Source: Pseudoalteromonas sp. NC201
Lineage (GTDB): Bacteria; Pseudomonadota; Gammaproteobacteria; Enterobacterales; Alteromonadaceae
NCBI RefSeq assembly: GCF_002850255.1
Contig: NZ_CP022523.1
Span: forward strand, 878,486-942,485
Reading direction: 5' to 3'
DNA: 64,000 nt
Shown here: positions 21,983 through 35,179 of the stretch, in pieces
Layout of the letters: each line of letters opens with the position of its first letter
How positions within the stretch are numbered: the stretch's first letter is position 1
Notes under the pieces: model-generated
What the model was told of the DNA's origin: nothing
The model's database searches: none
The model's input: only the letters and a program-made list of their open reading frames with translations
Position numbers and translations under genes: made by a program

Positions 21983-22272
21983 GCAGCTGGTTTACTCTGC
22001 GATACACCTCCATGTAGGAGCTGGTTCACCCAGCGATACACCCCGCGTAGGAGCTGGTTTACCCAGCGATACACCTCCGCGTAGGAGCAAGTTTACCCAA
22101 CGATACACCTCCGCGTAGGAGCTGTTTTACCCAGCGATACACCCCGCGTAGGAGCTGGTTTACCCAGCGATACACCTCCGCGTAGGAGCTGGTTTACCCA
22201 GCGATACACCTCGCGTAGGAGCTGTTTTACCCAGCGATACACCTCCATGTAGGAGCTGGTTTACCCAGCGAT
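21983..22272. repeat. Tandem array of nine REP-like 33-34-bp units
   Basis: About nine consecutive units with the consensus GTAGGAGCTGGTTTACCC followed by AGCGATACACCTCCGC; the first and last are partial or divergent. Each has a small hairpin (GCTGG/CCAGC) behind a GTAGGAG head, the layout of Pseudomonas REP sequences. Variants (ccccgc, ctcgc, gcaag) are scattered, so the array expanded some time ago. There are no spacers, so it is not a CRISPR. Confidence 0.85.
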
Positions 22273-22446
22273 CTTTTTAAAACGCCGGCTGCGGATTACT
22301 TAGGGCTATGAGGGGTGTACCCTCAATAAAGTTTGTCTTTAAAGAACGGTTAGGCGTGAAAAACGATGAAAATGTTTCAAATTACGTAAAGTTGGTGAAG
22401 TATTGAGTGTTTTATTGTTTTTTCATTGCAATTTATCGAGAGAAGC

Positions 22447-22475
22447 TTGTCTTTATATTTAACTAAATGTAATGT
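22447..22475 (+). promoter_or_regulatory. Promoter of HTH-membrane paralogue 1
   Basis: -35 TTGTCT (22447-22452), 17-bp spacer, -10 TAATGT (22470-22475). The same block recurs before paralogues 2 and 3, far more conserved than the surrounding intergenic DNA. Confidence 0.65.
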
Positions 22476-22519
22476 TTGGGTTAATTTCAAGGGAGCTAAC
22501 GTAAAACAATGGTGGACAG

Positions 22520-23395
22520 ATGCAAACGCCAGAGGAATATGAGGTAAGCCAGCGGATAGGTAGGTTAATACTTGGGTTAAAGTGTACCAGAGGTATGACC
22601 CGAGAAGATGTGTGTAAACGTTTAGGTATAGGCTCGCGCACGTTAGATAATTACCTAAACGGAGTGAGCTCATTTAAACTTGGGACATTGTTAAAGTTTG
22701 CGGATCTTTGCAAGGTAAAACTGGCTGATATCTTGGATGATACCGACGCGCTGAAGCGCTTGTATCCTGAGAATATTAAAGACAAAGGCAATATCTTTTT
22801 GCTATTTACAGGCTATTTTGTCGGCGTTATGGTGCTTGAATTTACCTTATTTGCTTTTCTTATTTTGTTATCGTTTTATGCGCGTAATGACAAGAATAGT
22901 CAGAGCATTGTTGCAATTTTTATATTTGCTTTTTCGTTGGAAATCGTTGTTGCATACTGGTTGAATTATGTCGTCTTCCCAGCTATTGAAAGCTATTACA
23001 TTGAAAATATCTATGCTTTTGCAACTCAACTTTTACTGAGTTTACTGCTGGCGCTAATGATCAAATACAGAATGTTCTTAGGTGCATGGTTTACCAAAGG
23101 GAATTCAGCCAGTATTTTTGAGAAGAACCAAGTAGATGCGCCGCTTTATGCACTCGCATGTACGTTAGCTTTGATTGATTTTGCCGCATTGATGGAAAAC
23201 TTTATCCGTAACCTAGAGCGTTTAGGTATAGATGAAGAAGTTGCCAAACCATTTTGGGAGCTGACCTTTATTTATGATTACTTTGCTTATATTAAGGCCG
23301 TGCCTTATCTGCTCTGTATGTTTGTTTTATACGCAGGAATAACAGCGCGCCGTAAGCAGGTTTTAGATAAAGCAAATGCTGCGCCTACACAATAA
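22520..23395 (+). CDS. HTH-membrane paralogue 1 (291 aa)
   Basis: I do not recognise a named family. Residues 1-85 form an XRE/Cro-like helix-turn-helix: 'MTREDVCKRLGIGSRTLDNYL' has the helix-turn-helix spacing, with 'SSFKLGTLLKFADLCKVKL' as the following helices. A short charged linker ('LYPENIKDKGN') leads to about five membrane spans (roughly 96-125, 130-155, 165-190, 210-232, 255-280). The loop 'KGNSASIFEKNQVDAPLY' and 'ALMENFIRNLERLGIDEE' with 'FWELTFIYDYFAYIK' are shared by all paralogues. It would be a membrane-tethered DNA-binding protein. It has its own promoter. Its HTH is more diverged than those of copies 3-6. Confidence 0.75.
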   Translation: MQTPEEYEVSQRIGRLILGLKCTRGMTREDVCKRLGIGSRTLDNYLNGVSSFKLGTLLKFADLCKVKLADILDDTDALKRLYPENIKDKGNIFLLFTGYFVGVMVLEFTLFAFLILLSFYARNDKNSQSIVAIFIFAFSLEIVVAYWLNYVVFPAIESYYIENIYAFATQLLLSLLLALMIKYRMFLGAWFTKGNSASIFEKNQVDAPLYALACTLALIDFAALMENFIRNLERLGIDEEVAKPFWELTFIYDYFAYIKAVPYLLCMFVLYAGITARRKQVLDKANAAPTQ

Positions 23396-23594
23396 TGTGA
23401 AGGTTTTCCCATAAAAATAGAGAAGTCTGTGTGTTTTTAATTATTGATTTTAATGGTCTGCAAAACAACAAATAAGCAGGTTTAGCGAGGGTTGCTTAAA
23501 TCGATTGATACCAAAAATTCAAATATAATGATAAGTTTGTTTCTATTTTGGGTTGTTTTGCGAGTGTGCACCTAAAAATAGTACTGTCATCTAC

Positions 23595-23623
23595 TTGTCT
23601 TTATATTTAACTGGATGTAAACT
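23595..23623 (+). promoter_or_regulatory. Promoter of HTH-membrane paralogue 2
   Basis: -35 TTGTCT (23595-23600), 17-bp spacer, -10 TAAACT (23618-23623). The -35 and most of the spacer are identical to paralogue 1. Confidence 0.6.
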
Positions 23624-23666
23624 TTTGGTTAACTTGGTTGGGGTGATTGAGAGATATGGTGGGGCG

Positions 23667-23978
23667 ATGCAGACGCCAGAAGAATACGAGGTGAGTCAGC
23701 GTATCAGCCGATTGATACGGGGGCTAAAGCGCAAAAAAGGGATGACCCGAGAAGAGGTTAGCCGGCGTTTAGGTGTGGGTGACAGGACCCTTGATAACTA
23801 TTTAAATGGCTCTAGCTCCTTTAAGCTTGGGACATTGCTTCGGTTTGCTGAAATCTGTAAAGTAAAGTTATCAGATATTTTAGAAGATACAGATAAGCTC
23901 TCAGGCCTGTATGGAGAAAAACATGAGGAAAAGAACAATGAAGGCTGCACAGAAAAAGCCGATAAAAATAGCCCTTAG
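23667..23978 (+). CDS. HTH-membrane paralogue 2a: HTH domain only (103 aa)
   Basis: Starts at the conserved MQTPEEYEV; the frame is open further upstream, but homology begins here. It encodes the XRE-like helix-turn-helix ('MTREEVSRRLGVGDRTLDNYL') and then ends in a hydrophilic tail ('HEEKNNEGCTEKADKNSP') instead of entering the membrane domain. The matching membrane part is a separate gene at 24089-24709 in another frame. It could act as a soluble DNA-binding version that competes with the membrane-bound paralogues, or be a broken gene. Confidence 0.65.
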   Translation: MQTPEEYEVSQRISRLIRGLKRKKGMTREEVSRRLGVGDRTLDNYLNGSSSFKLGTLLRFAEICKVKLSDILEDTDKLSGLYGEKHEEKNNEGCTEKADKNSP

Positions 23979-24084
23979 TCGCTCATTGTGCAAATTAATA
24001 TCTGGAGCAGGTCTTGTAACTGGAAGCGGGCCTAAAAATCAGCAAGCGGAATCTACGCCGCCGGAAGAAAAAAGCCAAGGTTGA
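23923..24084 (+). CDS. Bridging small ORF in split paralogue 2 (53 aa)
   Basis: An ATG-started frame overlaps the last 56 bp of the HTH ORF and ends four bases before the ATG of the membrane ORF. The product is basic at first ('MRKRTMKAAQKKPIKIAL') and Pro/Glu-rich at its end, with no recognisable domain. It has two possible explanations. It may translationally couple the HTH and membrane ORFs, or be a by-product of frame-disrupting mutations that split an ancestral gene. Listed because its position is suggestive; expression is unproven. Confidence 0.3.
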   Translation: MRKRTMKAAQKKPIKIALSRSLCKLISGAGLVTGSGPKNQQAESTPPEEKSQG

Positions 24085-24088
24085 ACGC

Positions 24089-24709
24089 ATGAGAAGTCTG
24101 TTTAATTTATCGTTGTTAACTAGTGTCGCTGCGCTATTGCTAGCTTTTTTTGCAGGGTCAACAATATTTGAGCCAATTACTTGTGGGCTACTTTTTGCGC
24201 TTGTTTTCTTATCAAGGGAAGATGAAAATAGTCTACTGTTAACCCTAATTTTTGCTATAACTTTTGCCCTCGATACCGTGATGGTTTACTTTATAACGTA
24301 TGTTATTATTCCAGCGGTAGAAAGCTACTATGTAGAGAACATTTACGCTTTTGGAATCCAGTTAACTTTAAGCCTATTATTGTTGTTCTTACTCAGGCAT
24401 CGAATGACAATCGCTGTTTTGATTACTAGAGGCAAAAGTGCATCAGTATTTGAAAAAAATCATGTCGAAGGTCCTCTATATCTCTTAGTAATATTACTGG
24501 TATTTATCGATTTTATGGCTTTGATGGAAAACTTTCTTCGCAATTTAGAGCATTTAGGAGTGAATGAAGAGCTAGCGAAGACTTTTTGGGACGTTACTTT
24601 CTTTTTCGACTATTTTCCGTACCTGAAAGCAGTGCCTATGTTGTTGTGTGTAACAATGCTTTATGTAGGCTTGGTGGTACGAACCAAGAGACAACCAATC
24701 CAGAGTTAG
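24089..24709 (+). CDS. HTH-membrane paralogue 2b: membrane domain only (206 aa)
   Basis: A free-standing version of the multi-span C-terminal domain, with about five hydrophobic segments. It keeps the family loops 'RGKSASVFEKNHVEGPLY', 'ALMENFLRNLEHLGVNEE' and 'FWDVTFFFDYFPYLKAVP'. Its closest relatives in the array are copies 5 and 6. An AAGG motif lies eight bases before the ATG, so independent initiation is plausible. The membrane domain has remained open over 200 codons, which argues that it is still translated. Confidence 0.6.
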   Translation: MRSLFNLSLLTSVAALLLAFFAGSTIFEPITCGLLFALVFLSREDENSLLLTLIFAITFALDTVMVYFITYVIIPAVESYYVENIYAFGIQLTLSLLLLFLLRHRMTIAVLITRGKSASVFEKNHVEGPLYLLVILLVFIDFMALMENFLRNLEHLGVNEELAKTFWDVTFFFDYFPYLKAVPMLLCVTMLYVGLVVRTKRQPIQS

Positions 24710-24863
24710 TCAGAGGTTCAGGGGCGCGCAGTATGTTTCCGGTATTGCGCTCGCTTTTATGTTCCAATATGTTCCAAAGTATCCTTCTCTGATAACCATT
24801 ATAGATACGTTATTATCATCTACTTGAAAGTGTACGCTTTTTCATAAGTTAGTGTTATTCCAC

Positions 24864-24892
24864 TTGTCTTTATATTAAACAAAATGTAATGT
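24864..24892 (+). promoter_or_regulatory. Promoter of the paralogue 3-6 operon
   Basis: -35 TTGTCT (24864-24869), 17-bp spacer, -10 TAATGT (24887-24892), followed by the same GTTTGGGTTAATT discriminator as paralogue 1. Copies 4-6 lack this block and follow at gaps of about 40-45 bp, so they probably depend on this promoter. Confidence 0.65.
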
Positions 24893-24934
24893 TTGGGTTA
24901 ATTTTGTGGTTTGATTAAAGGGGAATGTGGGGCG

Positions 24935-25798
24935 ATGCAAACGCCAGAAGAGTACGAGGTAAGCCAGCGTATAGGACTACTAATAAAGGGCCTTAAGCAT
25001 AAACGCGGGATGTCTCGAGAAGATATATGCCGCCACCTCGGGATTGGCATGCGAACGCTAGACAACTACCTCAATGGTGTTAGCTCTTTTAAGCTTGGCA
25101 CGTTAATGAAGTTTGCTGACCTCTGTAGAGTCAAGCTTGCCGATATTTTAGATGATACCGAAGCGCTCTCACGACTATATCCAGACAATATGAAGGACAA
25201 GGGCAGTATTCTAACATTGCTTTTCGGCTCTCTTGCAACGGCAATGCTTTTTGAGTCAATCACTTTGTTTTTGCTAATTATGTTGCTTTGCTATTCACAC
25301 AAAGACAAAAACAATCAATGTATGGTCGCAATTTTTGTAGTGATCTATGCATTAAGTAATGCATTTGGTTACTGGCTTAAATACTTTGTTTTCCCCACAG
25401 CTGCTAATAACTTCATTCAAAATGTATACGCTTTTTCAATAAACTTGGCACTAAGTTTATTTCTGCTCTTTTTAATTAAATATAGAATGAAATTTGCGGT
25501 GCTTATCACGCGAGGAAGGTCTTCCGAAGTATTTGAGAAGAGTCTTGTTGAAGCTCCACTTTACTTCCTTGCTCTGATCCTAGCAGTTGTTGATTTTTGT
25601 GCGCTAATAGAGAATTTTATTCGCAATTTAGATCGATTGGGAATGGATGAAGAGAAGGTAAAAATATTCTGGGAGTTGACCTTCTTCTATGATTATTATG
25701 AATACCTTAAAGCCCCGCTGATGTTGCTTAGTATAGCACTTCTCTATGCAGGGGTACTTGCACGGAAAAGCAATATGCAGCAGCCCCAAAGTGCGTAG
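24935..25798 (+). CDS. HTH-membrane paralogue 3 (287 aa)
   Basis: Starts at the conserved MQTPEEYEVSQRIG; an upstream in-frame ATG at 24911 adds eight non-conserved residues. The HTH (residues 1-92) is almost identical, even at the DNA level, to copies 4, 5 and 6 ('MSREDICRHLGIGMRTLDNYL'). After 'DNMKDKGSILTL' the sequence diverges sharply into the membrane domain. C-terminal loops: 'RGRSSEVFEKSLVEAPLY', 'ALIENFIRNLDRLGMDEE', 'FWELTFFYDYYEYLKAPL'. It heads an apparent four-gene operon. Confidence 0.75.
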   Translation: MQTPEEYEVSQRIGLLIKGLKHKRGMSREDICRHLGIGMRTLDNYLNGVSSFKLGTLMKFADLCRVKLADILDDTEALSRLYPDNMKDKGSILTLLFGSLATAMLFESITLFLLIMLLCYSHKDKNNQCMVAIFVVIYALSNAFGYWLKYFVFPTAANNFIQNVYAFSINLALSLFLLFLIKYRMKFAVLITRGRSSEVFEKSLVEAPLYFLALILAVVDFCALIENFIRNLDRLGMDEEKVKIFWELTFFYDYYEYLKAPLMLLSIALLYAGVLARKSNMQQPQSA

Positions 25799-25843
25799 TA
25801 ATAAGTCGATAAATAAATCACGGAAATAGGAGATGGCGGGCTG

Positions 25844-26707
25844 ATGCAAACGCCAGAAGAGTACGAAGTAAGCCAGCGCATAGGGCTACTAATAAAAGGT
25901 CTAAAGCATAAACGCGGGATGTCGCGAGAAGATATATGTCGCCACCTCGGGATTGGCATGCGAACGCTAGACAACTACCTTAATGGTGTTAGCTCTTTTA
26001 AGCTTGGTACGTTAATGAAGTTTGCTGACCTCTGTAGAGTTAAACTCGCTGATATTTTAGATGATACCGAAGCGCTCTCACGACTATATCCAGACAATAT
26101 GAAGGACAAGGGCAGTATTCTAACATTGCTTTTGGGTTCTCTTGCTTCCGTTATGCTCTTTGAGTCTGTTTTCTTAGTTTTACTAATTTTACTGCTTTGC
26201 TACTCACATAAAGATAAAAATAATCAATGCATAGTTGCTATTTTTGTTGTGGTCTACGTGCTAACTAATATTGGTGGCTACTGGCTAAACTATGTCGCTT
26301 TTCCAGCAGCTGAAAACTATTATATGCAGAACGTATACGCATATTCGCTACACCTATCATTAAGTCTGTTACTATTCCTTCTGCTCAAGTACAGGTTGAT
26401 GTTCTCGGTATTGGTTACTCGCGGAAAATCGGCAGCTGTTTTCGAAAAAAGCCTTATTGAAGCTCCTCTCTACTTTTTGTCTATGATGCTAGTCACTATA
26501 GACTTTTTGGCGTTAATGGAGAACTTTATTCGTAATCTGGAACGATTAGGAATCGACGAGGAGAAAGCTAAAATATTCTGGGAGTTAACCTTTTTTTACG
26601 ATTACTTTAGGTATCTTAAGGCCGTACCATTATTACTCAGTTTAGTACTCCTCTATGCAGGAATACTCGCACGGAAAAGAAATACGCAGCAGCCCCAAAG
26701 CGCGTAA
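25844..26707 (+). CDS. HTH-membrane paralogue 4 (287 aa)
   Basis: Second gene of the 24935-28523 operon, 45 bp after copy 3, with an AGGAG-type ribosome site (AGGAGATGG) in the spacer. The HTH is near-identical to copies 3, 5 and 6. The membrane domain is closest to copy 3 ('YSHKDKNNQC', 'FEKSLIEAPLYFL') but clearly distinct ('YWLNYVAFPAAENYYMQNVYAY'). Both end in the same 'QQPQSA' tail. The paired tail and spacer similarity suggest that copies 3 and 4 arose by recent duplication and then diverged in the membrane part. Confidence 0.75.
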   Translation: MQTPEEYEVSQRIGLLIKGLKHKRGMSREDICRHLGIGMRTLDNYLNGVSSFKLGTLMKFADLCRVKLADILDDTEALSRLYPDNMKDKGSILTLLLGSLASVMLFESVFLVLLILLLCYSHKDKNNQCIVAIFVVVYVLTNIGGYWLNYVAFPAAENYYMQNVYAYSLHLSLSLLLFLLLKYRLMFSVLVTRGKSAAVFEKSLIEAPLYFLSMMLVTIDFLALMENFIRNLERLGIDEEKAKIFWELTFFYDYFRYLKAVPLLLSLVLLYAGILARKRNTQQPQSA

Positions 26708-26751
26708 TAATAAGTCGATAAGTAAATCACGGAATAAGGAGATGGCGGGCG

Positions 26752-27615
26752 ATGCAAACGCCACAAGAGTACGAAGTAAGCCAGCGTATAGGACTATTAA
26801 TAAAGGGTCTTAAGCATAAACGCGGGATGTCACGAGAAGATATATGTCGCCACCTCGGGATTGGCATGCGAACGTTAGACAACTACCTTAATGGCGTTAG
26901 CTCCTTCAAGCTTGGTACGTTAATGAAGTTTGCTGACTTATGTAGAGTCAAACTCGCCGATATTTTGGATGATACCGAAGCGCTCTCGCGACTATATCCA
27001 GACAATATGAAGGACAAGGGCAGTATTCTAGCCTTGCTAATGACTACGGTAGTAAGTGCTACAGTTTTTGAGCCGATCACCTGTATTTTACTTTTTGTCT
27101 TAGTTTATTTATGTAAAGAAGATCAAAATAGCTTATCGCTAACTTTGATTTTTGCAGTTGTGCTTTCACTAGATGCAGTAATGGTATTTTACTTAAAAAA
27201 TATTGTTTTCCCTGTGGTTGAAAGCTATTACATCGAGAATATTTATGCTTACGGTGGACAGTTAATCTCAAGCCTACTGCTGTTATTTCTGCTCAAGTAC
27301 CGAATGGCACTTTCAGTTTTTTTCACACGTGGTAAATCAGCCTCGGTATTCGAGAAAAATTACGTGGAAGGACCATTGTATTTCTTGGCTTTAACGTTAG
27401 TGCTTATAGACTTCTTTGCATTGATGGAAAACTTTCTTCGTAATTTAGATCGCCTAGGTATGGATGAGGAAGCGTCTAAAATATTCTGGGAAGTTACGTT
27501 CTTTTTTGACCACTTTGCGTATCTAAAAGCTTTTCCGACACTATTGTGCATTACTCTGTTATATATTGGATTGCTTGCACGTAAGAAGAGCCGCCAGCAG
27601 CTATCACACTTTTAA
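26752..27615 (+). CDS. HTH-membrane paralogue 5 (287 aa)
   Basis: Third gene of the operon, 44 bp after copy 4, again with an AGGAGATGG site. The HTH is near-identical, with one difference at residue 5 (PQEYEV). The membrane domain belongs to the second subtype shared with 2b and 6: 'VFEPITCILLF', 'KEDQNSLSLTLIF', 'RGKSASVFEKNYVEGPLY', 'ALMENFLRNLDRLGMDEE', 'FWEVTFFFDHFAYLKAFP'. The product should sit in the inner membrane with its HTH in the cytoplasm. No ligand can be inferred. Confidence 0.75.
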   Translation: MQTPQEYEVSQRIGLLIKGLKHKRGMSREDICRHLGIGMRTLDNYLNGVSSFKLGTLMKFADLCRVKLADILDDTEALSRLYPDNMKDKGSILALLMTTVVSATVFEPITCILLFVLVYLCKEDQNSLSLTLIFAVVLSLDAVMVFYLKNIVFPVVESYYIENIYAYGGQLISSLLLLFLLKYRMALSVFFTRGKSASVFEKNYVEGPLYFLALTLVLIDFFALMENFLRNLDRLGMDEEASKIFWEVTFFFDHFAYLKAFPTLLCITLLYIGLLARKKSRQQLSHF

Positions 27616-27656
27616 TAACAATAGATTAATTATTAGATTCAGGAAACGGTAGGTCG

Positions 27657-28523
27657 ATGCAAACGCCAGAAGAGTATGAAGTAAGCCAGCGCATAGGACT
27701 GCTAATAAAAGGTCTAAAGCATAAACGCGGGATGTCTCGAGAAGATATATGTCGCCACCTCGGGATTGGCATGCGAACGCTAGACAACTATCTCAATGGT
27801 GTTAGCTCTTTTAAGCTTGGTACGTTAATGAAGTTTGCTGACTTATGTAGAGTTAAACTCGCTGATATTTTGGATGATACCGAAGCGCTCTCACGACTGT
27901 ATCCAGACAATATGAAGGACAAGGGCAGTATTCTTACGCTTATCTTGGGATCGGCTTTTGGCGTAATTATTTTTGAGTCCATTTTATTTATCTTATTGTT
28001 GGTTTTGTTCTTTTACTCTTACAAAGACAAAAATAGTCAGCTGTTGACGTTATGTTTTGCAGTGCCTTACTTTCTTGCAATTGTAGCGATATACATGCTT
28101 CGCATCGCGATCTTCCCTGTTGTGGAAAGCTACTTTATAGAAAATATATTTGCGTTTTCAATTCAGTTTTCTCTCAGCCTACTGTTGCTCTTTTTACTCA
28201 AGCATCGTATCGAGATAGCTATTATTTTAACTCGGGGAAAGTCGGCTTCTGTCTTTGAAAAAAACTATGCTGAAGGGCCATTATATTTCCTAGCAATTGT
28301 TTTAGCTTTCGTAGACTTTCTGGCATTGATGGAAAACTTTCTCCGTAACCTAGATAGAATGGGTATAAACGAAGAAACCGCAAAGGTGTTCTGGGAAGTA
28401 ACCTTTTTTTATGACTATTTTGCTTACTTAAAATCAGTGCCTATGTTGCTGTGTGTCGCGGTACTTTATATCGGTTATATCGCACGTAATCAAGTATCAA
28501 GATCGGCTGAACATGTTGAGTAA
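27657..28523 (+). CDS. HTH-membrane paralogue 6 (288 aa)
   Basis: Last gene of the operon, 41 bp after copy 5. The HTH is near-identical to copies 3-5. The membrane domain looks mosaic. Its first spans carry 'YSYKDKNSQLLTL', resembling copies 3 and 4, while later loops 'RGKSASVFEKNYAEGPLY' and 'ALMENFLRNLDRMGINEE' match the copy-5 subtype. This is consistent with recombination between paralogues. No terminator hairpin is obvious in the ~100 bp after the stop. Confidence 0.75.
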   Translation: MQTPEEYEVSQRIGLLIKGLKHKRGMSREDICRHLGIGMRTLDNYLNGVSSFKLGTLMKFADLCRVKLADILDDTEALSRLYPDNMKDKGSILTLILGSAFGVIIFESILFILLLVLFFYSYKDKNSQLLTLCFAVPYFLAIVAIYMLRIAIFPVVESYFIENIFAFSIQFSLSLLLLFLLKHRIEIAIILTRGKSASVFEKNYAEGPLYFLAIVLAFVDFLALMENFLRNLDRMGINEETAKVFWEVTFFYDYFAYLKSVPMLLCVAVLYIGYIARNQVSRSAEHVE

Positions 28524-28654
28524 TAATGGTAGTATCTGATGTCGATTATACAGATTTTTCGTTTATGAGTTGCTGCTATAGTTTGGTCTCCTCAACCCTT
28601 TGAGGATAGCGTTAAATCATAGATTACTTTGCAAAAGCACACAAAATCTTCTGC

Positions 28655-28674
28655 GGTGGGTGTCAGTGATTTTT
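28655..28674 (+). repeat. Dispersed GGTGGGTGTC boundary motif
   Basis: One of three copies of GGTGGGTGTCA-K-T-R-ATTTTT; the others are near 31140 (with a shortened head) and at 34115. All lie just upstream of or between orphan genes. It shares its core with the REPIN-like hairpins described elsewhere in this window. Confidence 0.6.
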
Positions 28675-28697
28675 CGGCTCAATTTTTAGGAGTTAAA

Positions 28698-28970
28698 TTG
28701 AAGCGTAGTTTACAGTTTAAGATTCATTTGGCTCTACTCGTAGCCTGCATTATAGGTTTTCAATTTTATAGGGGTACGATTGATAACTTCTTTACTAACC
28801 CTTTTTATATCGGTTCAATGCTTGTTGGTGTTTTACTTGTGTTAAAAGCTATTTTTTACTCGTGCCAAAAGTGCCGAAGAAATCAAGTAATACTGGGGTG
28901 GTATAGGTATAGGTTGCCTAAAGAAAGGTGTTATAATTGCGGTCATAACATTGACAATAGTCGCTCCTAA
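28698..28970 (+). CDS. Small membrane protein with C-terminal zinc-ribbon-like cysteines (90 aa)
   Basis: I place the start at TTG 28698 because TAGGAG lies five bases upstream; the frame also extends to a TTG at 28629 without a ribosome site. Two hydrophobic segments (about residues 8-25 and 36-56) are followed by two Cys pairs, 'SCQKCRRNQ' and 'RCYNCGHNI', spaced like a zinc ribbon. A membrane-anchored zinc-ribbon protein is therefore likely. I do not recognise a family. It lies directly after the HTH-membrane array. Confidence 0.5.
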   Translation: MKRSLQFKIHLALLVACIIGFQFYRGTIDNFFTNPFYIGSMLVGVLLVLKAIFYSCQKCRRNQVILGWYRYRLPKERCYNCGHNIDNSRS

Positions 28971-29002
28971 TAAATTAACGAAATAGGGGCGCAACAGTAG
29001 GT

Positions 29003-29428
29003 TTGTGCTTTTTTAGTATAAAATCAGAAAAACTGGATAAGTTTAGCTTTATGGAAAAGTTTTGTATCTCAATTATTTCACTGTGTCTTGCTCTTGGTGG
29101 TGTCACCCATATTTTTGACAATGTGTACTTTGGACTTCTACCATATAAGTTTGCACCAAATTGGGTGAATTTATACTGGACATCCCTTGGTGTTATTGAT
29201 TTTTTAGCTATTTATATTCTGCTAAAGAATAGAAATCTGGGGATAATTTTAACTTTGATAATAATGATAAGTGACGTAGTTATTAATTCAGCGGCTTACT
29301 ATTCTATGCAAGTTATTAAAGACCCTATAGCATTGCAGCTACAAACACTTTTTCTCGGCTTTTGTCTTGGCGCGTGCATGTGGTTATGGAAAAGCAATAG
29401 CAGTAACTCTGTTTCGCCTGTTACTTAA
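29003..29428 (+). CDS. Hypothetical four-span membrane protein
   Basis: Up to 141 residues with four hydrophobic helices, ending in a short hydrophilic tail ('WKSNSSNSVSPVT'). The start is uncertain. GTG 29003 has a TAGG four bases upstream, while ATG 29051 (MEKFCISIISL) begins directly before the first span. No family recognised; the four-helix layout resembles DoxX-like or DUF-type small membrane proteins. It is the last gene before the IS1111-type element, whose insertion may have cut off downstream relatives. Confidence 0.5.
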   Translation: MCFFSIKSEKLDKFSFMEKFCISIISLCLALGGVTHIFDNVYFGLLPYKFAPNWVNLYWTSLGVIDFLAIYILLKNRNLGIILTLIIMISDVVINSAAYYSMQVIKDPIALQLQTLFLGFCLGACMWLWKSNSSNSVSPVT

Positions 29429-29512
29429 CATATATGTTCTTTTTAAAGAACAGCAAAAAAACAAAAATAAGAACACAAAATAAGAAGAAAATAAGGAAAG
29501 AAGAAAATAAGT

Positions 29513-29909
29513 GACATATATGGACGCTCAGCTGCTGTCAAGTAATACTCATCCAACAAGGTTGTTTTAACAGCCTTGTTGCTTCTTTTATTTATCTCTC
29601 ATTTACTATTTGTATGTATTGATAAACAGTCACTTTGAGTCACCCTAAATAAGGTGCTGCTCTGACATATATTCGGGCTTAACTGACTTTCAGCGCCCCT
29701 AATGAGTTTCGAACCTAGCCACCCAAAAAGTAGAATACACCCACGCGGCATTGAATGCCTTGCCTATAACGGGTTTAACTAGGTAGGTTTGACCTTTTGT
29801 TCATCGTTATGTTTACAGCAATGAGAATATGGCTATCAAGGGCTCATAAACACCCACTCGGGCTCGAGGCCCTTGTCACGACCGGGCTCCTTAATAGCCA
29901 TAATTTGAG
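29513..29909 (-). ncRNA. Candidate bridge-RNA region of IS copy 1
   Basis: IS110-family elements encode a structured guide (bridge) RNA in their long non-coding end; in the IS1111 subgroup this is downstream of the transposase. This ~400-bp end is fully conserved between the two copies. Beside the transposase stop it contains a large inverted repeat, ATGGCTAT (29829-29836) with ATAGCCAT (29894-29901). The exact RNA limits and the target- and donor-binding loops cannot be fixed by eye. Confidence 0.4.
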
Positions 29910-30941
29910 TCATGATTGCGCCTCACTTTGTGTATATTGGGCTTTATAAGGTTCATTTCTTTGTAGCAATATCCACATTAAGCGAGCCAATCGGTGGGCC
30001 GTGGCCACCACCGCTTTATTTTTACCGCGACGTTCTACCAATGCGTTGATCCATTTGTTTAAATCATCCTGCTTTTTGTGCGCATGATTGACCACTGTAC
30101 GGGCACCATGAATGAGTTGTTTTCTTAGATAACGATCACCTCGTTTGGTGATCCCTCCCATCTTATTGGTTTCACCCGAAGCATATTGACGTGGTGTGAT
30201 CCCAAGCCACACAGCCAACTCCTTTTTATTAGAAAATGCTTGCCCTTTATCTATTGTGGCACTCAATGCCGATGCGTTGATAATCCCAATTCCGGGGATG
30301 GATTGGATAATTTGAGCAGCTTGGCTCTGTTCATTAAACTGCTTAAATTGTGCCTCTACATTTTTAATATTGGCGTCTAACTTTTGCATTTCTTCATAAA
30401 CGTCTCTGAGGAGTAGATTTAAAGCTCCATGTAAATTACGGTTGAGCAGATCAGCAATGGTTGCACGAAAAGACTTTAAGCTCTTTTTGATGACGATGCC
30501 AAATTCAAGTAACAAACCACATGTTTGGTTGATGCAGGCGGTTCGATTATGTATGAGCCGCTCCCGATAGCGATGTAGTGCTAGGATTGCTTGTTGATGC
30601 TCTGTTGTTACAGGAACAAAGCGAATGTTAGGTCGAAGGCTCGCTTCATAAATCGCCATACAATCATTTTTATCGTTTTTATTGCCACGGACAAAAGGGG
30701 TAACATGTTGCGCAGGGATAAGCTGAACTTGGTGCCCAGCTTGTAAGCAGTACCGCCCCCAATAATGAGACGTTGAGCATGATTCCATAACAACATTACA
30801 AGCAGGTAATTGGGTCAATGTTTGCAAGAGCTTTGCTCTATCTAACCTTCTGGAAAAACATTTATTACCTTGCTTATCAAACGATAAAAGTTGGAATACA
30901 TTTTTTGCTAGATCAATTGAAAGCGTGCTAACGTTATTCAT
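29910..30941 (-). CDS. IS110-family transposase (copy 1)
   Basis: 343 residues from the ATG at 30941, which has AGGAG eight bases upstream. It has the DEDD RuvC-like domain at the N-terminus ('LSIDLAKNVFQLL', 'VVMESCSTSHYWG', 'KNDKNDCMAI'). The C-terminal Transposase_20 domain has 'IQSIPGIGIINASAL' and the presumed catalytic Ser in 'RQYASGETNKMGG'. Family members cut and paste using a bridge RNA. Identical to copy 2 except Thr versus Lys in 'FVPV[T/K]TEHQQ'. The full-length frame suggests an active element. Confidence 0.93.
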   Translation of the reverse strand: MNNVSTLSIDLAKNVFQLLSFDKQGNKCFSRRLDRAKLLQTLTQLPACNVVMESCSTSHYWGRYCLQAGHQVQLIPAQHVTPFVRGNKNDKNDCMAIYEASLRPNIRFVPVTTEHQQAILALHRYRERLIHNRTACINQTCGLLLEFGIVIKKSLKSFRATIADLLNRNLHGALNLLLRDVYEEMQKLDANIKNVEAQFKQFNEQSQAAQIIQSIPGIGIINASALSATIDKGQAFSNKKELAVWLGITPRQYASGETNKMGGITKRGDRYLRKQLIHGARTVVNHAHKKQDDLNKWINALVERRGKNKAVVATAHRLARLMWILLQRNEPYKAQYTQSEAQS

Positions 30942-31114
30942 GATGGACTCTCCTAATAACTGTGTTTGCAACTATCAGTTTGGCGCATTGACGCCGATTT
31001 GGGAGCGTCCATCTCATCACCCATTACTATTAACGTCAAAGCTGAGGAAGCAGAACTAACGTGGGCACCCACCATAACTAACACTACAGAACGAAGGGTA
31101 TCAGCTTAAGGTTA

Positions 31115-31159
31115 TGACACCCAGCCATATTTGAAATTTGTGGGTGTCAGTAATTTTTC
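31115..31159. repeat. REPIN-like hairpin next to IS copy 1
   Basis: TGACACCCA (31115-31123) and TGGGTGTCA (31141-31149) form a 9-bp perfect stem with a 17-nt loop. The right arm continues into the boundary motif GTCAGTAATTTTT. Confidence 0.65.
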
Positions 31160-31341
31160 TCGCAGATAAGTTATAACTCGTTTTTTCAGGTAATTCGTAT
31201 GTTGAATGACAATGTTTGACTGGTAATTTGCTAAAATTATTAAATAAAGTTTCTTGAATATTGCGATTTTTCTCTTGTGGATAAGTGAGATATTAAAGAA
31301 TTTATACTAATTAGCTGTTAAATTTCTAAAGGAGCATCAAG

Positions 31342-32583
31342 TTGGCAAATGGAAGTTTTGGTCTCGATAACGAGGCTTTAATTATTAAAAGTGGTATAAG
31401 AAATGTTTTTACGCCTCATATTCCGATTGACGAAATATCTCATTTTTTTGGGCGTGAAGATGAAGCAACAAGATTAGTCAGCGTTATTAATTCTCCCGGC
31501 CAGCATATCCTTCTTTACGGTGATCGCGGTGTTGGGAAAACATCTCTTGCGAAAACTACTTGTAAACTAATTTTACATAAACTTCAGCGCGGGCATTTTT
31601 TTGAGAAACGTTGTGATTCTGGAGATAGTTTCTCTTCTATTTTTGTTGAAGCACTTGAAAAATGTGGGATTGATTTGTCGTTCAGAGAAGCAACTCAAAC
31701 GCATAATCAAGGTGGTGGCGCAGTATTAAATGCAGTTTTCGCAAAGGCTGACCTGTCCACTAAAAGGGAAACAAAAACTACAATAGTAACCACATTTAAA
31801 CCTGACTCTCCATCTTGGGTTGCGAAGCACTTAAAGTCCCTTTCAGGAATTATGCTTATTGACGAAGCTGACGCACTTCAAGATGAATCCGATAAGAAAA
31901 AAATTGCAGAACTTATTAAATTGCTTAGCGATCATAAGTCCAATTTCAAATTGGTGGTGGTAGGTATAGCGGCTACTGGGGAAGAGTTAACAGCTGGTCA
32001 TCCTTCAGTAGAAAGATGCTTAAAAGAAGTTTCATTGCAACGAATGTGCGACGAAGACCTTAAGAAGATAATTCTTAATGGCATGAATTCTTTAAATCTT
32101 CGCCCTGATGATAGCGTTGTCGAAAAAATAGTAGATATAAGTGCTGGATACCCCCACTTCACTCATTTAATTAGCTTAAAATGTGGTGAGGCTGCAATCG
32201 TTAGAGGCAATAAGCATATAACAAAAGATGTACTCAAAAGTGCACTCAATGAAGCGGTGAAGGATTCTGAGGGAGCATTACAAAGAATGCTTGAGTCTAC
32301 ACTTCGCGTATTAAACACTCCACAGGAGTATAAGTTCCTGCTTCTTACAGCTTCTTATTGTAATACACCTGAATTTCGTAGCTCTGAGTTAAGAGAAAAA
32401 TTAAAAAGTAAATTTGGTGTCATCGTTGATTCGCAGACTTTAAGCCGAAGACTAACAAAATTAACCAAAGGGAGTGAAAAGACAATTCTGTATAAGCCCG
32501 CGAGGGGGTGCTTTCAATTCACAGATCCAAGAATGCCTAGCTTCTTAAAGATGGCTTTGAATGCAGATGATGACGTAATGTAA
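31342..32583 (+). CDS. Orphan AAA-type ATPase, 413 aa
   Basis: Starts at TTG, with AAGGAG seven bases upstream. Walker A is 'LLYGDRGVGKTSLAK' (about residue 57), Walker B 'IMLIDEADAL' (about 174), followed by a sensor-like 'KLVVVGIAATGEE'. The helical lid and a C-terminal winged-helix-like segment ('SSELREKLKSKFGVIVDSQTLSRRLTKL') resemble the ORC/Cdc6-like and STAND-type ATPases often found in accessory islands. There is no partner effector next to it apart from a toxin-antitoxin pair. The role is unknown; defence, regulation or a mobile-element function are all possible. Confidence 0.75.
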   Translation: MANGSFGLDNEALIIKSGIRNVFTPHIPIDEISHFFGREDEATRLVSVINSPGQHILLYGDRGVGKTSLAKTTCKLILHKLQRGHFFEKRCDSGDSFSSIFVEALEKCGIDLSFREATQTHNQGGGAVLNAVFAKADLSTKRETKTTIVTTFKPDSPSWVAKHLKSLSGIMLIDEADALQDESDKKKIAELIKLLSDHKSNFKLVVVGIAATGEELTAGHPSVERCLKEVSLQRMCDEDLKKIILNGMNSLNLRPDDSVVEKIVDISAGYPHFTHLISLKCGEAAIVRGNKHITKDVLKSALNEAVKDSEGALQRMLESTLRVLNTPQEYKFLLLTASYCNTPEFRSSELREKLKSKFGVIVDSQTLSRRLTKLTKGSEKTILYKPARGCFQFTDPRMPSFLKMALNADDDVM

Positions 32584-32678
32584 CAAGCCACCACACTCGG
32601 AAATTTCACTTACTCCGCTCCCAAAATTCCGGTGAGCGGAGTGTTGGTTACCTTATCAATATTACATGCTCAATTTAC

Positions 32679-32725
32679 TGTACAAGTAGAATGGTGAAGA
32701 CTATACTTGTTCCATTAAATGTACA
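32679..32725 (+). promoter_or_regulatory. TGTACA operator motifs of the toxin-antitoxin operon
   Basis: Two TGTACA hexamers (32679-32684 and 32720-32725) flank the likely promoter just before yefM. The YefM-YoeB complex of E. coli recognises palindromes with this core. The spacing here (41 bp) is wider than in E. coli. Confidence 0.45.
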
Positions 32726-32738
32726 TGTAGAGGTTCTT

Positions 32739-32993
32739 ATGAGAATTGTATCTTTTACTGAAGCTAGAAATGGTCTTAAAGCTGTTCTAGACGGTGTAGT
32801 TAATGACGCAGATACAACAGTCATTACACGTCGTGACTCTGAGGATGCTGTGGTTATGTCTTTAGATTACTACAATAGCCTTATGGAGACTGTCCACTTA
32901 CTACGCTCTCCTCAAAACGCTGAACACTTAAATCGTTCGATTGCACAGTACCGTGCTGGTAAAACAACAGCACGAGAGTTAATTGATGAGTAG
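32739..32993 (+). CDS. yefM: Antitoxin of the Phd/YefM family
   Basis: 84 residues from ATG 32739 (MRIVSFTEARNGLKAVLD); the frame is open 16 codons further upstream, but homology starts here. The N-terminal Phd/YefM dimerisation and DNA-binding part ('VTRRDSEDAVVMSLDYYNSL') is followed by a toxin-binding tail ('LNRSIAQYRAGKTTARELID'). It neutralises YoeB and represses the operon with it. It overlaps the toxin gene by 8 bp, so translation is coupled. Confidence 0.93.
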   Translation: MRIVSFTEARNGLKAVLDGVVNDADTTVITRRDSEDAVVMSLDYYNSLMETVHLLRSPQNAEHLNRSIAQYRAGKTTARELIDE

Positions 32994-33255
32994 TAGTCAA
33001 CGTTTACTATCGTGGACTGATGACGCTTGGGATGACTATCTGTATTGGCAAACTCAAGACAAGAAAACACTCAAGCGCATCAACAAACTCATCAATGATG
33101 TTAAGTGCTCCCCATTTGAGGGCATCGGTAAACCAGAGCCGTTGAAAGAGAGTTTATCTGGTTTTTGGTCTCGTCGTATTGATGACACTAACAGGCTTGT
33201 TTATGCAGTTGATGATCAAGCGATAACGATAATTTCGTGTCGTTACCACTACTAA
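32986..33255 (+). CDS. yoeB: Toxin YoeB, ribosome-dependent mRNA interferase
   Basis: 89 residues from ATG 32986. The RelE/YoeB fold is recognisable from 'WDDYLYWQTQDKKTLKRINKLI', 'PFEGIGKPEPLKESLSGFWSRRI' and the invariant C-terminus 'SCRYHY', which carries catalytic residues. It cleaves mRNA in the ribosomal A site when YefM is degraded. All key motifs are intact, so the pair should be functional. In accessory DNA such pairs stabilise the surrounding segment. Confidence 0.95.
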   Translation: MSSSQRLLSWTDDAWDDYLYWQTQDKKTLKRINKLINDVKCSPFEGIGKPEPLKESLSGFWSRRIDDTNRLVYAVDDQAITIISCRYHY

Positions 33256-33290
33256 ATTAGAGGCGGCGATAATACAGCAAGCGAATTAGG

Positions 33291-33443
33291 TGTATCGAAC
33301 CTGTGTTCGGCAACATCATAGTGAATAAAGGAATGAATAAACTCACATTACGAGGGCAAGGGAAAGTGAATGCGCAATGGAAGTTGTATTGCTTGGTGCA
33401 TAATCTAGAAAAGTTGCAAAAAATAATACACAAAGAAGTGTAG
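33291..33443 (+). pseudogene. IS1182-family transposase remnant (C-terminus only)
   Basis: About 50 codons with the terminal signature of IS1182-type transposases: 'IEPVFGNIIVNKGMNK', 'TLRGQGKVNAQWKLYCLVHN', 'LEKLQKII', ending at a stop at 33441. The upstream part is missing and the toxin gene ends 35 bp before it, so the element was truncated. It marks past insertion-sequence activity at this locus. Confidence 0.75.
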
Positions 33444-33628
33444 CTCATTTTAAACCTCAAAAAGCCACAGAGACCAGCCTTATAGCCTCATAAAACACAG
33501 TAAAAAAATGACAGTGACGTTTAGAGTAAACGATTGAATCAAATAAAGAACTCGGCTAAGGTTGATACCACTATGCAAAATGTATTAAAAATGAGCAATT
33601 CTACAGGCTTGTTAGGCATTCCTAAAGT

Positions 33629-34039
33629 ATGAAGATAAATTTAAGTGATAGCCATAAATTAGAAATCGTTGTATTGAGCCGAGGAGCGGATGAGTACGAC
33701 TATGATTACAATCTTCGGCTAACTTTGAGCTCTAGCGGGTTCACTTTTACAAAGGACGTATGGGCTGATGGAAGTGAAGTACAGGAATTCATAAAAAATA
33801 TTGAATCATTAAAAAGTACATTAAAGGGCGAAGCTAAACTAACTTCTGAAAGCCCTGATGAATTGGAGTTGCTAATAAAACCAGTTGATGCCCTTGGCCA
33901 TTTTGTTCTAAAAATCGAACTTGGAAACCAGTTTATGATAGGGAAAGAGTGGTTTTGGTCGAAGTACATCGATGCATTTTCTCTAGAGGCTGCAGCATTA
34001 GAATTGGTTTGTGATGAGCTCTTAGAAAATTTGGTATAA
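33629..34039 (+). CDS. Hypothetical protein, 136 aa (immunity-protein-like)
   Basis: An acidic, soluble protein without signal peptide or membrane span. It begins with beta strands ('LEIVVLSRGADEYDYDYNLRLTL') and ends with a helical segment ('SLEAAALELVCDELLENLV'). The layout of a short beta sheet plus helix with many acidic residues resembles small polymorphic-toxin immunity proteins such as WapI, but I cannot assign it firmly. There is no adjacent toxin carrying an RHS or LXG signature. It sits alone between repeat motifs. Confidence 0.5.
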   Translation: MKINLSDSHKLEIVVLSRGADEYDYDYNLRLTLSSSGFTFTKDVWADGSEVQEFIKNIESLKSTLKGEAKLTSESPDELELLIKPVDALGHFVLKIELGNQFMIGKEWFWSKYIDAFSLEAAALELVCDELLENLV

Positions 34040-34114
34040 GAATGCCTAAGGATGGATTGGTGATACCCATCACTAATTGCATTGACGTTAGGAAAATGAA
34101 GGCTTGAAATTTGT

Positions 34115-34945: not shown

Positions 34946-35179
34946 CTAGTCCATGCTTGGGGCGCTGGAATATACCAACTCAATTAGGTTATTCATCGTT
35001 CTTGATTTTTGCATATAAGCCTTTTCCATATGGGCAAGCTCTTGTAATTCAAATAAGGTCGTTTCTACGAGTGCCAGCCATTTTTCTGTGGTGTCTGGTA
35101 CCGCTTCACTTTGCTTTGTTGCTTTTTTTAGTGCGTCGTAATAAATAGTTAAGTCACGATATTGGCTTTGATAGTCCAT
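34946..35179 (-). CDS. Small hypothetical protein, 77 aa
   Basis: An all-helical, charged protein ('MDYQSQYRDLTIYYDALKKA', 'EKWLALVETTLFELQELAHMEKAYM') without membrane spans. Its expression as a real gene is supported by the strong terminator 37 bp downstream. The family is not recognised; helical hairpins of this type are often dimeric regulators or antitoxin-like proteins. It lies just upstream (same strand side) of the LysR gene. Confidence 0.5.
   Translation of the reverse strand: MDYQSQYRDLTIYYDALKKATKQSEAVPDTTEKWLALVETTLFELQELAHMEKAYMQKSRTMNNLIELVYSSAPSMD

Follow-up and report, generated by a model that had tools for sequence, protein, structure and literature searches.

A tandem array of helix-turn-helix and membrane protein genes with an embedded hypervariable peptide gene in Pseudoalteromonas: a candidate peptide-receptor locus

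The array and its three-gene unit

A tandem array of genes combining a helix-turn-helix (HTH) DNA-binding domain with a polytopic membrane domain was studied in a stretch of 64,000 nucleotides from Pseudoalteromonas sp. NC201 (NZ_CP022523.1, positions 878,486 to 942,485), here called the window. The genome is in two contigs, and the window is part of the one of 1.24 Mb; all coordinates are counted from the first letter of the window. The open reading frame (ORF) calls place six units within 22520-28523, all on the + strand, and the N-terminal ~93 residues of every unit match the Pfam families HTH_26/HTH_3 (XRE-type HTH) above cut-off, bearing out a sequence-only reading that had described six same-strand tandem units with a shared HTH. 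Units 1 (22520..23395, 291 residues), 3 (24935..25798, 287 residues), 4 (25844..26707, 287 residues), 5 (26752..27615, 287 residues) and 6 (27657..28523, 288 residues) are HTH-membrane fusions, and unit 2 (23667-24709) is divided into separate genes. The HTHs of units 3-6 are 99-100% identical as proteins and 93-96% identical as DNA, units 3 and 4 differing at 14 of 93 HTH codons, all synonymously; the membrane parts are 51-70% identical as proteins, far beyond chance. A near-invariant HTH protein with silent codon changes, beside membrane parts as divergent as these, indicates that selection keeps the HTH unchanged as the membrane part diverges.

In unit 2 an unfused HTH gene (23667..23978, +, 103 residues) is followed by a gene for a 48-residue peptide (23938..24084, +, with an alternative start at 23923) and by a gene for a membrane protein of 206 residues with six predicted helices (24089..24709, +), the first half of which is hypervariable. 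The peptide gene begins, in another frame, within the last part of the HTH gene and stops 4 bp 5' of the membrane gene. Its product has a lysine-rich start and a double-glycine-type (GG-type) leader, MKAAQKKPIKIALSRSLCKLISGA, ending in LSRSLCKLISGA, and then a hydrophilic 24-residue core, GLVTGSGPKNQQAESTPPEEKSQG. Such a gene was seen only with unit 2 and with none of the other units of the window. The sequence-only reading had rightly noted that one unit is split, but it missed the peptide and took unit 2 for a damaged copy. That part does not stand: the split is identical in 10/10 genomes that carry the array, with a peptide gene bearing a similar leader in all ten, and an identical split around an internal gene argues that unit 2 is a three-gene module rather than a broken fusion.

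In double-glycine leaders the site may be GG, GA or GS, and hydrophobic positions are conserved, with the consensus L-12, E-8 and L-7 (PMC6363468). The array peptides mostly have L at -12, and in most of them the L/C at -8/-7 is non-consensus. This departure, the very tight overlap of the peptide gene with the HTH and membrane genes, and the lack of any visible exporter gene in the module would suit an internal regulatory peptide, one that is not exported and whose binding partner, within the cell or the membrane, is the HTH or the membrane protein. We consider this improbable, because a GG-type motif and a conserved leader ahead of a hypervariable core are not what such a peptide leads one to expect, and two further observations given below, on the membrane protein and on repeated precursors, point the same way.

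Promoter-like blocks of the form TTGTCT-N17-TAATGT or TAAACT, identified by eye, stand 5' of units 1, 2 and 3 only: at 22447..22489 (+; TTGTCT-N17-TAATGT, with an inverted repeat TTTAAC-N16-GTTAAT at 22458-22485), at 23595..23637 (+; inverted repeat at 23606-23633) and at 24864..24906 (+; inverted repeat at 24875-24902). Units 4-6 trail their preceding units by gaps of 41-45 bp. This arrangement agrees with what had been proposed for the locus, namely separate promoters for copies 1-3 and an operon of units 3-6. Among 30 promoters in ten genomes, 28 have matching blocks and 26 of these 28 carry TTWAAC-N16-GTTAAY over the -10 element, a position at which a repressor would be expected to act. 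The conserved block begins at -35.

Variation and exchange between strains

The array is present in at least ten genomes, in genome sets that mostly hold one genome per species. All ten share a layout of a fused unit 1, an HTH/peptide/membrane unit 2 and fused units thereafter, with a copy number that varies from four to six units. The frames are open and full-length apart from two last units, one cut near a contig end (G116) and one of 269 residues with a different C-terminus, which may be damaged (G084). The array is thus neither fixed in copy number nor peculiar to one strain with mostly broken copies elsewhere, two points on which the sequence-only reading had asked for a check.

The units differ sharply in how far they vary. 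With G084 excluded, the nine other genomes have an almost invariant unit 1 (HTH 98.4%, membrane part 92.0%), and one membrane cluster accounts for it in 9/10 genomes. The unit 2 membrane parts are 58-100% identical beside a constant HTH (97.9%) and, at 85% identity, form nine clusters in ten genomes; from unit 3 onward the HTHs average 99.1% and the membrane parts range over 47-100%. Within unit 2 identity follows a gradient, from 97.9% in the HTH through 83% in the leader to 33-37% in the core, then 56% in the N-terminal half of the membrane protein and 79% in its C-terminal half. The cores differ among the ten genomes except that G028 and G089 share one and that G088, G080 and G090 have one nearly identical core; some array loci have two or three peptide genes. 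With database proteins added and clustering at 90%, 34 unit-2 membrane sequences give 25 clusters and 56 fused ones give 16. Most units from the third onward are cassette types that recur elsewhere at about 87-100% identity in new combinations; in the window the type of unit 3 is common to G116 and strain 2515, that of unit 4 to G014, G089, G090 and G116, that of unit 5 to G080 and G088, and that of unit 6 to G014, G028, G089 and G090. In a differently ordered relative (G131) the peptide module ends one array and starts another.

The comparison with P. piscicida strain 2515 (NZ_CP074588.1) locates the boundaries of the variable segment. The upstream flank is 98.5% identical and, in 100-bp steps, identity is 93-100% at 22401-23900, 85% at 23901-24000 and 46-60% at 24001-24400. 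The second half of the membrane gene is at 70-72%, the stretch from there to the unit 3 promoter at 50-62%, and identity rises to 90-97% past that promoter. Homology detected by blastn ends at 23990, which corresponds to Cys18 of the leader, and returns at 24862, just 5' of the unit 3 promoter. The set of cassettes is different as well, since the unit-5 type is absent from strain 2515 and the array there ends in a different cassette. Taken together, the alignments indicate that the core and the membrane gene are swapped between strains as a block while the HTH and the leader stay constant. Remains of earlier, displaced peptide modules, made up of HTH ends, peptides and truncated membrane starts, are stacked ahead of the intact module in P. 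flavipulchra (G080) and in G079.

A hypervariable peptide beside a variable membrane protein is also what a bacteriocin-immunity locus would show, and the extra copies that have no peptide would then be orphan immunity genes. On this account, our main rival explanation, the peptide would be a bacteriocin, small and of narrow spectrum, to which the membrane protein gives immunity, perhaps acting as the sensor too, and the fused units would form an inducible, HTH-autoregulated repertoire of immunities against the peptides of other strains. The likeness to class II bacteriocins and microcins with their immunity genes lies in the GG-type leader and in a small precursor encoded beside a membrane protein gene. 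The array differs from them in that its cores are hydrophilic and short (16-24 residues, with 1-4 residues of V, I, L, M, F, W and C each), unlike most membrane-active bacteriocins, in that an HTH is encoded in the operon and fused to the membrane protein, and in that no exporter genes were seen adjacent. We regard this alternative as unlikely overall, although it deserves more weight than the internal peptide.

The membrane family in the genus

The membrane family was found in 46/108 Pseudoalteromonas genomes, one of them (G091) by a weak match only. Among 394 genomes of the order there were five matches, three within the genus and two outside it, and the latter look on inspection like unrelated proteins. 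Protein searches, of which two of three scored only the best ~8000 candidates, returned Pseudoalteromonas alone where an organism was named, and no convincing match outside the genus was found in the genomes and protein databases searched. The membrane parts have no Pfam family above cut-off; with units 4 and 2 as queries, NCBIfam (above cut-off) and PADLOC gave no family for them and PHROGs gave matches at chance level only. The PADLOC models, which represent known anti-phage defence systems, yielded nothing for the fusion or the membrane proteins beyond weak generic HTH matches. The earlier remark that no named family was known with this architecture in tandem is upheld to this extent, since these searches placed the fusion in no characterised family.

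Outside the arrays the membrane protein comes after unfused HTHs of several classes. The loci retrieved gave 62 unfused modules, 10 in arrays and 52 elsewhere, after one membrane ORF without an HTH had been dropped. A loose pattern finds a GG-like peptide ORF in the interval from HTH gene to membrane gene in 41/62 modules (array 10/10, others 31/52), compared with 0/62 on the reverse strand and 4-5% in shuffles; the strict L-12..GG pattern finds 33/62. The 21 modules missed by the loose pattern comprise 13 with look-alike peptides, judged by eye, and 8 without. Many cores share a G...P(R/K) element across HTH classes (KDPR, KPPR and GSGPRQQ are examples). The peptide of one solo module reaches the cut-off of the Pfam ComC model (20.5 bits, cut-off 20.4) and scores below that of the EntF induction-factor model (21.9, cut-off 35); of the solo peptides tried, only two approach or reach these models.

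A further alternative, in line with the first idea offered for the array, is that of sensors of membrane state (lipid, stress or voltage) with a tethered HTH, in which the small ORFs would be incidental, and a regulator with a polytopic membrane protein can indeed sense alone, as described for LytTR regulatory systems (PMC6193735). We think this very improbable, because GG-like ORFs occur in 41/62 modules and in none on the reverse strand, and because diversification is centred on the peptide core and the neighbouring membrane half.

Six loci hold precursors with several tandem leader/core repeats, each repeat with its own GG-type site (L042, L142, L143, L146, L156 and L045, the last with up to seven), an arrangement that resembles a polyprotein pheromone precursor. 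Up to seven GG-core repeats in one precursor speak against an internal peptide. A second HTH class (GDDLRAMR) follows the same plan, an HTH/peptide/membrane module and then one or two peptide-less fusions (L048, L053, L117-L123), of which one fusion is broken in L123.

When 110 membrane domains, 47 of them fused, are placed on a tree, the fused or unfused state changes 11 times, or 10 times without one row in which a broken fusion was mislabelled as unfused. A 99-row tree without the longest branches gives 8 changes, 5 of them forced by starred branches, where shuffled labels give 32 (by a quick method), and from these trees we conclude that the HTH and membrane parts have been fused or separated at least five times. 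The membrane part of unit 5 of the window falls in the unit-2 clade. The starred set to which units 5 and 2 both belong counts 11 unfused rows and 3 fused ones, the pattern that capture of a receptor allele as a fusion would leave. This repeated fusion and separation is the best evidence that the HTH and the membrane protein act together, as they probably do; it also counts against the bacteriocin-immunity alternative, because an immunity protein does not need a DNA-binding domain. The suggestion that the units bind the same DNA site and respond to different membrane signals thus gains from the constant HTH, the diverse membrane parts and their repeated fusion, and as regards the shared site it has the conserved inverted repeat only; the hypervariable GG-type peptide suggests what the nature of the signal might be.

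The predicted structure of the unit-2 membrane protein has six helices (residues 2-21, 27-41, 46-76, 80-103, 127-151 and 176-200) and is a confident model, with a predicted local distance difference test score (pLDDT) of 86 and a predicted template modelling score (pTM) of 0.84. The model of the fused protein has five clear helices and a poorly modelled first stretch (85-101); the earlier figure of about five membrane helices is to be corrected to six. From the fused HTH and a charged tail, the termini are predicted to lie inside. Among 25 unit-2 alleles the protein is most variable where the model puts helices 1/2 (0.34) and 3/4 (0.40) at their periplasmic ends, the cytosolic loop 97-131 is conserved (0.80), and the third periplasmic loop is conserved as well (0.78), with an invariant Glu147. 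Variation at the modelled periplasmic face, and not at the cytosolic one, again counts against an internal peptide. A search of the PDB with the models gave no fold match that stands out.

Several features of the surroundings may be recorded here. An imperfect tandem repeat of ~33 bp (GTAGGAGCTGGTTTACCCAGCGATACACCTCCGC) lies just upstream of the array at 21985-22272. A gene for a helical-looking protein of 77 residues (MDYQSQYRDLTIYYDALKK...; 34946..35179, -) lies 6.4 kb beyond the array; the genome has four copies, three adjoining solo modules (L011, L012 and L013) and this one past the array, and the gene is also found downstream of the array in 6/7 other genomes read there (L108, L109, L111, L112, L113 and L038). 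Profile searches gave no family match for a relative of this protein, which is possibly a further component of the system. The interval between (28629-34040) holds what we take to be two small ORFs, an IS110-like transposase, an ATPase-like gene and a Phd/RelE-like pair; it is variable, with a Fic-like gene or almost nothing in other genomes. A possible precursor of a ribosomally synthesized and post-translationally modified peptide, cysteine-rich and 74 residues long (MDLKLNKKQLKSL...IGGGCSYYC), directly follows one solo module in three genomes (L011 3633-3857, reverse complement; L044; L046). A lone HTH protein of the array type (MQTPEEYEVTLRI...) occurs at L009 3776-4111 (-) and also at L039 and L040; at L009 no peptide or membrane gene was seen beside it, and the HTH is present in other genomes of the group.

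A candidate peptide-receptor locus

In Gram-positive bacteria, loci with polymorphic peptides and receptors are a familiar finding. In the staphylococcal agr system (AgrBDCA; PMC10482373), a hypervariable block spans the peptide and its membrane partners within a conserved locus and gives rise to allelic groups. The array likewise has a hypervariable peptide/membrane block in a conserved locus and, as in agr and ComCDE, a small peptide precursor encoded beside a membrane partner with both allelically variable; autoregulation, established for agr, is presumed for the array. We therefore favour the reading that the array is a polymorphic, agr-like peptide-receptor locus whose receptor bears its own HTH and whose peptide-less units are receptors for other peptides, because a constant output domain and leader are combined with a hypervariable core and a hypervariable outer half of the membrane protein that are exchanged as a block, as in agr allelic groups. 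We put its probability at roughly one half, slightly on the favourable side.

On this peptide-receptor reading, the unit 2 peptide would be trimmed at its GG/GA site and leave the cell, the likely route being a C39-type ATP-binding cassette exporter encoded elsewhere in the genome, and the mature core would bind the periplasmic face of the membrane domain. Binding would alter the occupancy of the inverted repeat over -10 by the cytosolic HTH, whether fused or held by its membrane partner, and with the HTH acting at the array promoters the array would regulate itself. The peptide-less fused units would be receptors for the peptides of other strains or for earlier peptides, and the whole would be a Gram-negative equivalent, in one component, of agr or ComCDE.

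As regards export, no exporter gene was seen in the unit-2 module or adjacent to it, and this genome has two C39 peptidase exporter genes (L139 and L140). One lies beside genes read as LanB/LanC-like and the other beside several read as glycine-rich, bacteriocin-like precursors; the presence of C39 genes beside genes read as bacteriocin-like and lanthipeptide would also suit a bacteriocin-immunity locus. In favour of the peptide-receptor reading, any C39 match was found in 46/46 genomes with the membrane family and 35/62 without, and a canonical C39 (E below 1e-18, a threshold chosen after the list had been seen) in 45/46 with and 20/62 without (Fisher p 2e-13, relatedness not corrected).

A number of results weigh against the peptide-receptor reading. 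Both C39 genes of this genome lie in what read as other peptide clusters, and the association of C39 with the membrane family is uncorrected for phylogeny. The array peptides tried against GG-leader family profiles gave no relevant match, and the window's own peptide has GA rather than GG at its motif. The 62 modules include eight without a visible peptide and some near-identical orthologues; the G..P[RK] pattern occurs in 49/62 modules but in 9/62 on the reverse strand too. The variable patches of the membrane protein were picked after the profile had been seen, and 3/205 circular shifts do as well. The covariation of core and membrane protein is weak, since the Mantel correlation in ten genomes (r 0.60, p 0.002) drops to r 0.23 (p 0.12) without G089, which has the G028 allele, and the outlier G084. 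Finally, the short inverted repeat is at genome background (8, control 10), and the longer operator-like motif occurs in this genome only at the three array promoters (control 0), with no wider regulon visible. Because of this confinement, which would also suit the bacteriocin-immunity alternative, autoregulation is the only visible regulatory target.

The array can be compared with several known systems. In agr the peptide is processed by AgrB, and the array differs from it in the double-glycine-type leader, in a DNA-binding domain that is part of the membrane protein or comes from a gene next to it, and in the several putative receptors without a peptide that accompany the peptide module; unlike agr and ComCDE, the HTH, fusion and membrane proteins gave no kinase or receiver profile matches. 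The ComC/ComD and Blp-type systems, as generally described, share the GG-type leader, and one relative's peptide reaches the ComC cut-off, but the receptor of the array is no kinase, its exporter would lie outside the locus and its host is Gram-negative. ToxR and CadC also tether a DNA-binding domain to the membrane but are single-span regulators, whereas the array has an XRE HTH before a six-helix domain, a tandem repertoire and a peptide gene. LytTR regulatory systems (LRS; HdrRM and BrsRM; PMC6193735) likewise pair a regulator with a multi-pass membrane protein and are autoregulated, as the array is presumed to be. They differ in that the array HTH is XRE-type (HTH_26/HTH_3/HTH_31 matches) with no LytTR domain match, in that the array operon includes a peptide gene, and apparently in the DNA site, since LytTR systems have direct repeats above -35 and the conserved block of the array, which begins at -35, has an inverted repeat over -10. 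An RRNPP receptor such as PlcR or ComR was considered and rejected, since the C-terminal part consists of membrane helices with no tetratricopeptide repeat match and the Foldseek hits to PlcR/ComR have a TM-score of about 0.2. It is the output domain or the type of receptor that keeps the array out of agr, ComCDE, LRS and RRNPP.

What appears new is the parts and their architecture, the idea of a polymorphic peptide and receptor being already known and the function being inferred from sequence. Our searches brought up no relative of the membrane family that has been described, and the titles and abstract starts listed from the open-licence literature showed no description of such a system. We suggest tentatively, at somewhat less than even odds, that the array represents a new peptide-signalling class, so far seen only in Pseudoalteromonas, in which GG-type peptides act on six-helix, HTH-bearing receptors, alleles of peptide and receptor are swapped between strains, and former or foreign receptors persist as fused copies with no peptide, giving each cell a strain-specific self channel and a non-self repertoire. 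If so, it would be a form of peptide communication or warfare needing neither a kinase nor peptide import, because the receptor would itself be the transcription factor. A marine Gram-negative genus would then have a counterpart of the Gram-positive loci with several HTH classes, inherited repertoires of non-self receptors and precursors of up to seven repeats, and kin recognition and peptide cross-talk would become testable in easily grown organisms.

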